DNA of 64,000 bases. Source: Fragilariopsis cylindrus CCMP1102. Its lineage: Eukaryota; Bacillariophyta; Bacillariophyceae; Bacillariales; Bacillariaceae. Where the stretch lies: assembly GCA_900095095.1 (NCBI GenBank), contig FMBT01000309.1, positions 372,001-436,000 on the forward strand, read 5' to 3'. Position numbers and translations under genes: made by a program. Under the pieces are notes generated by a model. The model made no database searches. It was not told where the DNA came from and was given only the letters and a program-made list of their open reading frames with translations. Below, one piece after another: positions 9,331 through 44,952 of this stretch. Within the stretch, counting starts at the first letter, position 1; each line of letters begins with the position of its first letter.

Positions 9331-10856
9331 ATGGCATATAATTTTCACGTGATCTCTTCTTTGTTGTCTTTCTTCATAATAATAGACCAATTATACTATG
9401 GGGTCGGTTTTCTTTTACCGTCATCGTCTCGACGGCATCATTTCTCCCATCATTATTTAAATCATTTTAGTACAAGTAATCTACTAAGTAGTAGAAACGA
9501 GAACAGCAACGACGACGAAGAAAATCCCTATAATGAAGGCGTGGAAGTATATGAAATAAAAAGCGCCCCGAAAGTAATACAACATGTTGACTTTTGGGGT
9601 ACAAAATGGACTAGTAATGATGATGACAATGAAACGACAACAAAAGTCCCATGTGTACCCACTCTGGATACTCGGAGCGGTCCCTTACCTCCCGGAGCGT
9701 ATATCATGGAAGGAAAGTCAGAATTTGATGCCAAACCTACCTGTCGAATATCAATTGCTGTAAAACGAAATTTAGCTAGTCGTGATACTATGGATGATCC
9801 CGATGAAGTTGTTAGGAGGTTACAAGCCTGCGTCGATGCCGGTTTGGACACATTTCAATTGCACGACCAAGAAACAACATCGTTGGATATTATAAGACGT
9901 ATGAACGAAAACACACCTTCCTATGTCAAAACACATTGGTCGGTCTCTATGAAGGCCCAATCCAAGTTCACCGATTCCACTTATTTATCACCCAAATTGG
10001 AAATTCGTCAAAATATCTTGAATTTAGTCGAGCAGACAGGGAGTGACGGGTTAGATAGTTTACAAGTCGATTGTAGCAGTTTGAAGTTGTCTAAACACTA
10101 CGGGTCGACGTTAGATATGTTTGATTATCTTACCGACTTACAACGTGAAGGATGGATACGGTCAATAGGTATTAGAGGTGTTGGATTGCCAAAGCTTCAA
10201 CAAGATATTATGACACATTTTGGTGACAGTATTGACTTTCAACAACAAGATGGGAATCTATTATTACCATCCCTCTCGACCGGCTCTTTTACAAGCAAGA
10301 ATTTCTGTATGGATAATTCCTTGCTGGTGGGTTGCTAACTGATACTTACAGCGATAAAAATTGGCGCAGTAAAAACAAAAGGATAGGTAATAGTTTACGA
10401 GACCCCATTCTGTTATTGACCAAAGACAACAAACTTCTTCTGAAAGAGTGGGCCTTACAGCACCAGCGACGCCAAAAAAGATCAGCATCAACTTCAGTGC
10501 CAGTGTGGAAATTGTACCAAGAACAAGTCGTGGAGCGACTCAGCTGGATTGCTTTGAAACACGATGTTTCCATGTCCGCAGTTGCCCTACGATGGGTATT
10601 GGAATGTAGTGGCGACTACAAAGGAGATAATACAAAGGAAGGGTCAATCATATCTACCAGCGCTGTGGCGGATGTTATCTTTGATTCAAATGAAATGTTT
10701 CAAAATCCGGTGTTAGAGTTTCGGCAAGTCTTTCGATTTCAGTTGGACGAAGAAGACAAGGAGTTGTTATCGCTATGTACCGCATACGAGATACCTTCGG
10801 GGGAAGAAGATGAATACACAGAAGTTGATTTTGATAATAGGGCGTTATGGCTATAA
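9331..10856 (+). CDS. Aldo/keto-reductase-like protein with an N-terminal targeting sequence; frame change near 10330
   Basis: About 508 residues if read through. A hydrophobic signal peptide (residues 5-25) ends at YGVGFLLP, which may be a plastid-type motif. The AKR barrel follows: EVVRRLQACVDAGLD, REGWIRSIGIRGVGLPKLQ (like EGKIRAIGVSN), NSLLVG, then LLTDTYSDK and IALKHDVSMSAVALRWVLE. The region that normally holds FDTA..YG reads DTFQLHDQE, and the usual QLH..D strand reads LQVDCSSL, so the catalytic Asp/Tyr and His seem to be missing and enzyme activity is doubtful. The frame changes by one missing base at about 10329-10333: LLVG ends in one frame and LLTDTY resumes in the next. A GT-AG pair spanning only 25 bases is there but is too short and in the wrong phase to be an intron. 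Confidence 0.75.
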
Positions 10857-21201: not shown

Positions 21202-22122
21202 TTATTTCATTGTTTTCCACGTCCACAGTCCCAAGAAGGAACCCAGTATTACACATAGAATATCGATTCCTAAAATTGGAATTCCTTGGAATTGTGCCGT
21301 CAATGATGCACCTGGAAAATCCATATTTACTTTAATTAATGTAATTAATGCATCAGAAAACCCTTTCCCAAAAAGAACAAGACTAACCGCCAACAATGGG
21401 AATTTCAATGGATATTTACTTTCATTTTTTAATTTTTCTAACATTCTATTATTATTATTATTGGATTCTTGTAGTTGTGGATCAAACCATGACTGTGACA
21501 TCCCATCTGGTGGACATTTTATTTTATTTTCGATTATATTCGGAACAAGTTCTACTCGAATTGAATCCACTTCTTTACGTTTATAACCAAGTTCTTCAAT
21601 CATAATCTGTTTCATATTTTGTGTTATCATAAAGACTTGTTTGGCTTCATTATTATCATTATCATTGTTATTATTATTATTTCCTTCATTTGATGGCATG
21701 TTGTCTTGAACATTATCATCATCAGTAGACGAAGAAACTAATGCAGGCATAGGCATTAAGGACTTTGTGCTGTCAAAATCTTCGTCTTGTCCATTATTAT
21801 TCTCCCCATTGTCAACTCTTTCCTGGACGGTTATACCGTCATCGTCATCGTTGTCGTCAACTTTGTTGCTGTCGTCACCACCTTCTGCTGATGCCAAAAG
21901 AGTGAGGAGGGGGGATTTTCCTATTGGTGATGGCGTACGTGACGTTTCTCCTAGCAACAGATTCAGATGATGATGTTTTTGTTTTGTCGAGTATGACGGC
22001 GACGGCAACGGCGACGAAGTCCAACAAAATGCACTACAAGAAAACACCGAAAGCAATATCACTACAGGTAATACTGTTAGTACTACTAGTGCTTGTGGTA
22101 GGAGCGATCTTTTGATTGTCAT
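21202..22122 (-). CDS. Plastid-targeted two-helix membrane protein, function unknown
   Basis: 306 residues, one exon. Signal peptide (ALVVLTVLPVVILLSVFSC) ends at CSAFCW, a good match to the A-S-A-F-type cleavage motif of diatom plastid proteins, and a Ser/Pro/Lys-rich transit-like region follows. A long Asp/Asn-rich linker (residues 80-160) leads to a helical block (VFMITQNMKQIMIEELGYKR), and the C-terminal 80 residues hold two hydrophobic segments (PLLAVSLVLFGKGFSDALI; GIPILGIDILCVILGSFLGL). Probably a plastid membrane protein. No family recognised. Confidence 0.8.
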   Translation of the reverse strand: MTIKRSLLPQALVVLTVLPVVILLSVFSCSAFCWTSSPLPSPSYSTKQKHHHLNLLLGETSRTPSPIGKSPLLTLLASAEGGDDSNKVDDNDDDDGITVQERVDNGENNNGQDEDFDSTKSLMPMPALVSSSTDDDNVQDNMPSNEGNNNNNNDNDNNEAKQVFMITQNMKQIMIEELGYKRKEVDSIRVELVPNIIENKIKCPPDGMSQSWFDPQLQESNNNNNRMLEKLKNESKYPLKFPLLAVSLVLFGKGFSDALITLIKVNMDFPGASLTAQFQGIPILGIDILCVILGSFLGLWTWKTMK

Positions 22123-44562: not shown

Positions 44563-44952
44563 ATGAAATTTATCGCCCAATTGTTGATTCTTGTTATAGC
44601 CGTTCAGGCTGCCTATGGCTTCGCTCCATCCAGTGGATTTGCTTCGTCAAAAACTCAATTGATGGAAAAGAAAACATCCATCGCTGATGAATTTATGGGA
44701 AATGCAAACGAGGCTATCACTAATAAAGTACTCACATTTGCTGCCTCAACAACCGGACTTCTCCTTTCTTTAGGAGTCGATCCTGCATGGGCCGAAAAGG
44801 AACTCCCACCTGATACCAGTTATATCGGAAAGGACTTTACCGCCGCATACCTACCTGCCGTTATGGTCCCTCTTGTTGGTCTTGTCTTTCCTGCTTTTTC
44901 CATGGCTTTATTTTTCCTTTTAACTCAAGTTGAAGATACTGAGTCCGCTTAA
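44563..44952 (+). CDS. PSAI: Nuclear-encoded photosystem I subunit VIII (PsaI) with plastid-targeting leader
   Basis: 129 residues, one exon. Mature region near residues 91-127 reads FTAAYLPAVMVPLVGLVFPA then FSMALFFLLTQVEDTES, matching PsaI (MxxxYLPSIxVPLVGLVFPAxxMA). The leader has three parts. Residues 1-19 are a signal peptide (MKFIAQLLILVIAVQAAYG) with the GFAPSS plastid motif. A Ser/Lys/Thr-rich transit part follows. Then comes a hydrophobic stretch (VLTFAASTTGLLLSLGVDP) ending in AWA before EKELPPD. That second hydrophobic segment with an A-x-A site resembles thylakoid transfer domains of plant nuclear-encoded PsbW, PsbX and PsbY, which insert as a cleaved loop. Function: single-helix subunit stabilising PSI. 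In most red-lineage plastids psaI is plastid-encoded, so this is unusual. Confidence 0.9.
   Translation: MKFIAQLLILVIAVQAAYGFAPSSGFASSKTQLMEKKTSIADEFMGNANEAITNKVLTFAASTTGLLLSLGVDPAWAEKELPPDTSYIGKDFTAAYLPAVMVPLVGLVFPAFSMALFFLLTQVEDTESA

Follow-up and report, generated by a model that had tools for sequence, protein, structure and literature searches.

A nuclear psaI gene with a predicted plastid-import and thylakoid-transfer leader in the diatom Fragilariopsis cylindrus

Results

The whole stretch of DNA that we analyzed (hereafter, the window) is 64,000 bases long and corresponds to bases 372001-436000 of a contig of 503,969 bases (C651), in an assembly of 67.9 Mb in 818 contigs. At 44563..44952 on its plus strand lies an intronless psaI gene for photosystem I (PSI) subunit VIII, whose open reading frame (ORF) of 129 codons runs uninterrupted from ATG to TAA and encodes a precursor of 129 aa. 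Pfam PSI_8 (PF00796) matches residues 97-119 at an E of 1.8e-7, its 31.3 bits exceeding the cut-off of 19.8, the NCBIfam equivalog TIGR03052 matches residues 95-121 with 46 bits against a cut-off of 38.2 (E 3.4e-12), and a second NCBIfam PsaI model, NF008830, gave 43.4 bits, under its cut-off of 50. With the PSI_8 and TIGR03052 scores above their cut-offs, a chance ORF was rejected. When the ORF was searched against the PDB, 68 distinct sequences were found at E <= 10 (best E 5.8e-10), and every one of the best 60 of these is named PsaI or a PSI subunit. Two chains, 8xls_I and 6l4u_I, which we take to be PsaI chains of diatom PSI, outrank the others, each with 22 of 33 aligned residues identical to the ORF. 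As judged from these matches, the PsaI identity of the C-terminal part is well above chance. The first-pass annotation had assigned the C-terminal 40 residues to PsaI; the identity holds, and the length is corrected to 37 residues (93-129, at 44839..44949, plus strand), in which hydropathy reveals a single hydrophobic stretch, in keeping with the one transmembrane helix of PsaI. The GC3 of psaI is 0.36, with a range of 0.27-0.41 among the 16 ORFs of at least 300 codons in the window.

A PSI_8 profile search of the assembly found two places that match at E <= 10, and both of these first-look candidates were scored. The second lies on C187, a contig of 84,961 bases, the first 40,000 of which were aligned to the window. 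This yielded one collinear alignment of 25.2 kb at 99.5% identity, stopping 283 bases short of the window end, and an identical block of 1,386 bases within it includes psaI, so that the coding sequence is the same in both copies. As the contigs are collinear at this identity over such a length, the C187 copy is read as an allele, and the two places appear to be the two haplotypes of a single locus. Of five neighbouring ORFs searched with Pfam, one has MORN repeats, one has a PHD finger and three have no match; no plastid-type gene was found among the five. The earlier statement that the gene sits among nuclear genes is borne out by these two of five neighbours and by the two collinear contigs, which together place psaI in nuclear DNA.

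The leader was described at first sight as a signal peptide, a GFAP motif, a transit part and a further hydrophobic segment that ends in AWA, and this anatomy was recovered from the frame and its hydropathy; the peptide motifs quoted with it are likewise present, and EKELPP follows AWA. Residues 1-19 (MKF...AAYG; 44563..44619, plus strand) form the predicted signal peptide, which starts like PsbO of the same genome and reaches a hydropathy of 2.4 over 15 residues, and a G19^F20-A-P motif with the putative cleavage site directly follows. The signal peptide and the +1 residue were judged by eye and by hydropathy. In diatom plastid import, F (or W, Y, L) stands at position +1 of the transit peptide, in the ASAFAP motif, and transit peptides are usually positively charged, according to the available text of PMC4329603. 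The transit-peptide-like region, tentatively bounded at residues 20-53 (44620..44721, plus strand), begins with F-A-P and thus has F at +1, as in this motif. Its net charge is -1 over residues 20-53, which is atypical, and +2 over residues 20-41, the transit peptide having an uncertain 3' border; as read from the sequence, the value of -1 counts mildly against a textbook leader.

The leader was compared with 20,000 shuffles of residues 1-94 in which Met was kept first. A hydrophobic start together with [ASG]F[AV]P arose in 5 of the 20,000 shuffles, a loose test for the second segment was passed by 5,548, and both features together were seen in none (0/20,000). By this measure, chance is a very poor explanation for the predicted import signal. 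Taken alone, the second segment appears not striking and the shuffles back it weakly; since so many of them pass the loose test, this segment needs other support. When residues 1-94 were compared with the own genome, only chance-level matches (E 1.55 and 1.87) were found beyond the two psaI copies, and no donor gene; in one scan of viral contigs there were 21 pattern matches, with no relative among them. Elsewhere in the window, the ORFs at 9331-10338 (plus strand) and 21202-22122 (minus strand) have starts that resemble plastid leaders (..VGFLLP.. and ..CSAFCW..).

The second hydrophobic segment, residues 54-77 (44722..44793, plus strand), ends in A75-W-A77 and is a putative cleavable thylakoid-transfer signal. 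Its hydrophobic stretch, at about residues 56-72, is of moderate hydrophobicity and weaker than residues 1-19; as a point against this reading, D73 lies near the proposed cleavage site after A77. For comparison, we considered the leaders of PsbO, PsbU and PsaE from the same genome, as read from translated frames with no splice evidence. The lumen protein PsbO starts with MKFVAATILALATSASA^FAP (opening in MKFVA); past an apparent intron follows a hydrophobic stretch that closes on AQA. On contig C88, the PsbU gene combines A^FAP with a double arginine and a stretch whose last residues are ANA; in a second PsbU-family gene, on C192, the double arginine recurs and the stretch, which ends in AFA, is weaker. 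The nuclear-encoded PsaE, which is stromal, has MFRFALL...SKA^FVP and is without a second hydrophobic stretch. The presence of such a segment in PsbO and PsbU, and its absence from PsaE, supports the view that the PsaI segment serves in thylakoid transfer. A twin arginine is not present in the PsaI leader, so that the Tat route appears unlikely for PsaI. The PsbU-family gene on C192 (54037-54246, locus L028) is a diverged second member besides the main gene on C88.

Between the AWA site and PsaI proper lies an acidic extension, EKELPPDTSYIGKDF (residues 78-92; 44794..44838, plus strand), which is predicted to be lumenal. In 8xls_I and 6l4u_I, the best-matching PDB chains, residue 2 aligns to residue 93 of the precursor, and both are thus without this extension. 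The chains 6sl5_I and 8cmo_I have a shorter N-terminal extension, of about 7 residues by alignment.

Two further observations concern parts of the assembly beyond the window. Like psaI, psaE is encoded in the nucleus, at C350:16142-16472 and C815:9671-10003 (loci L005 and L006), in two apparent exons, with a signal peptide showing A^FVP and no second hydrophobic segment. Its two copies share 89% identity along about 3.1 kb of DNA, as against 99.5% over 25.2 kb for psaI (C651/C187), and the paired contigs thus diverge very unevenly. In the available text of PMC9408514, psaE is named as missing from the plastome of F. kerguelensis and F. cylindrus is not named; F. cylindrus may therefore encode PsaE twice. 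The ice-binding (PF11999) family is large, with 53 matching stretches in the assembly, several of which are pieces of one gene and a few of which have internal stops; examples lie at C307:329379-330080 and at C651:324913-325599, the latter on the same contig as the window. The C307 protein is identical to the 234 queried residues of PDB 6a8k ('Ice binding protein 1', 257 residues), which is presumably an F. cylindrus ice-binding protein, and the next best reaches 87%; this match makes F. cylindrus the likely source of the assembly.

Discussion

In the PSI structure of Thalassiosira pseudonana, residue F5 of PsaI is reported to touch RedCAP on the lumenal side (PMC11527431), and this residue corresponds by alignment to Tyr96 of the nuclear PsaI. 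The lumenal position of F5 implies that the N-terminus of PsaI faces the lumen, and a protein that arrives in the stroma must then push its N-terminal end across the membrane. The plant proteins PsbW, PsbX and CFo-II use a cleavable second signal. Like PsaI here, they are nuclear-encoded thylakoid proteins with one helix, and they are described as being inserted without known machinery (PMC8790069). Their sequences are unrelated to diatom PsaI. By its anatomy, PsaI would fit the loop insertion of PsbW and PsbX, as hydropathy places a putative cleavable signal ahead of an N-terminus whose lumenal side is taken from the T. pseudonana structure. The likeness to PsbW, PsbX and PsbY that the first-pass annotation had drawn is thus sound as an argument on topology (residue 5 of PsaI being lumenal in PMC11527431) and does not carry over to the insertion pathway, for which Sec/Alb3 is equally possible.

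The best explanation, and in our view a very probable one, is that psaI was transferred from the plastid to the nucleus and that its product is imported over four membranes and inserted with a lumenal N-terminus. We infer the transfer, the expression, the cleavage sites and the hairpin insertion, which would proceed as follows. The signal peptide would take the PsaI precursor into the ER, the precursor would be cleaved before Phe20 and the transit region would carry it over the remaining plastid membranes. In the stroma, the second hydrophobic segment would become exposed and, together with the PsaI helix, would insert as a hairpin, by which the short acidic loop would be brought into the lumen and the thylakoid processing peptidase could cleave after AWA. 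The product would be a one-helix PsaI with a lumenal N-terminus, adjoining PsaL and PsaB. It is unlikely, though it should be kept in mind, that the same gene takes another last step, with the second segment left uncleaved, or with insertion by Sec/Alb3 rather than unaided. The segment is only moderately hydrophobic, no twin arginine is present and a pathway is not readable from sequence; the AWA site and the PsbO parallel nonetheless favour cleavage, and nothing distinguishes Sec/Alb3 from unaided insertion.

The fate of the plastid copy should be considered when referring to this transfer. Neither PsaA/PsaB nor the psbA/psbD family gave a match at E <= 1 in the 67.9-Mb assembly, which seems to be without plastid sequence, and the absence of psaI from the plastid therefore rests on the literature. 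The first-pass annotation stated that some diatom plastids lack psaI, and indeed psaI is reported missing from the plastomes of all Fragilariopsis compared, of Pseudo-nitzschia and of Astrosyne radiata (PMC9408514). Losses have also been published for Rhizosolenia imbricata (PMC4169464) and for several lineages (PMC12412971). As a gene of 36 codons is easily missed by annotators, the reported absence could be a failure of annotation, in which case a functional nuclear psaI would coexist with an unannotated plastid psaI. Such dual encoding has a precedent in petF of T. pseudonana (PMC12412971), and the assembly at hand yields no plastid sequence; we nonetheless consider it improbable, since the absence extends to all compared Pseudo-nitzschia and Fragilariopsis plastomes and is not that of a single record (PMC9408514).

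Less probable still is that psaI is a nuclear copy of plastid DNA, or a relic, which is not expressed. The gene is without an intron, as such a copy would be, but its frame is intact with a complete added leader, its GC3 resembles that of the other ORFs in the window, the five tested neighbouring ORFs include no plastid-type gene and both psaI copies are identical; a recent insertion of plastid DNA was thus rejected. We give slightly less credit to the acquisition of the PsaI part from another alga or a cyanobacterium. Its 37 residues are too few to expect a useful tree, and with this limit in mind, the first rank of 8xls_I and 6l4u_I, both taken to be PsaI of diatoms, speaks against such a source. 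Misassembly or contamination can be dismissed for practical purposes: the gene comes from one assembly only, but two contigs carry it in the same surroundings over 25.2 kb, with the leader fused in frame to PsaI.

If psaI was indeed transferred, the transfer may also have changed the protein. We tentatively propose that the roughly 15 extra acidic residues of EKELPPDTSYIGKDF are kept in the lumen, where diatom PsaI meets RedCAP. PSI would then have a lumenal PsaI tail that is absent from 8xls_I and 6l4u_I, and this tail would be a by-product of the insertion loop, with a possibly altered docking of the antenna. Having a tail would not in itself set this PsaI apart, given the extension of about 7 residues in 6sl5_I and 8cmo_I.

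How Fragilariopsis compensates for the lost plastid psaI was stated as still to be studied (PMC9408514), and the nuclear gene, which would explain the reported absence, is an obvious candidate. It would provide a concrete answer to this printed gap for Fragilariopsis and perhaps for Pseudo-nitzschia. Among the literature matches listed, with most subscription papers outside the coverage, we saw no description of the F. cylindrus psaI gene or of its leader. The available text of an F. cylindrus proteome paper (PMC13106929) reports PsaE and does not mention psaI. The taxa of PMC5643376, in its available part, include 'Fragilariopsis cylindrica', with PsaI present in all but five others, and the nuclear F. 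cylindrus psaI may thus already appear in Figure 1 of that paper.

Nuclear psaI as a category is not new, contrary to what the first-pass annotation implied; the present gene is useful for its answer to the stated gap and for its legible leader. One published case is Thalassionema, an araphid pennate diatom of another lineage. Like psaI here, its psaI and psaE were lost from the plastome and found in nuclear assemblies (PMC9044688). Its petF is nuclear too; in the available text, signal peptides are stated for petF, psaE and psaI are said to give 'similar results', and the psaI leader beyond the signal peptide is not described (PMC9044688). In Chaetoceros costatus, a centric diatom, the plastome is without psaI and one putative nuclear match of 80.6% identity is given, with no leader described in the available text (PMC8597025). 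Chlamydomonas also has a nuclear psaI (PMC11449065), but in a primary green plastid, for which no ER signal peptide is expected, unlike for the diatom gene. Among the PDB matches is 6ijj_I (106 aa), in which the match begins at residue 66, about 65 residues thus lying ahead of the PsaI part. We take this chain to be the Chlamydomonas PsaI. A recent transfer from plastid to nucleus within the diatoms is that of petF in Thalassiosira oceanica (PMC3022921). Unlike PsaI, the petF product is a soluble stromal ferredoxin and needs no thylakoid signal. The psaI gene of F. cylindrus suggests that a one-helix membrane protein leaving a four-membrane plastid would require a second signal of the lumen type, which is absent from the stromal PsaE, and beside these known systems it would offer a clean and testable case of how genes for one-helix membrane proteins can leave the plastid.
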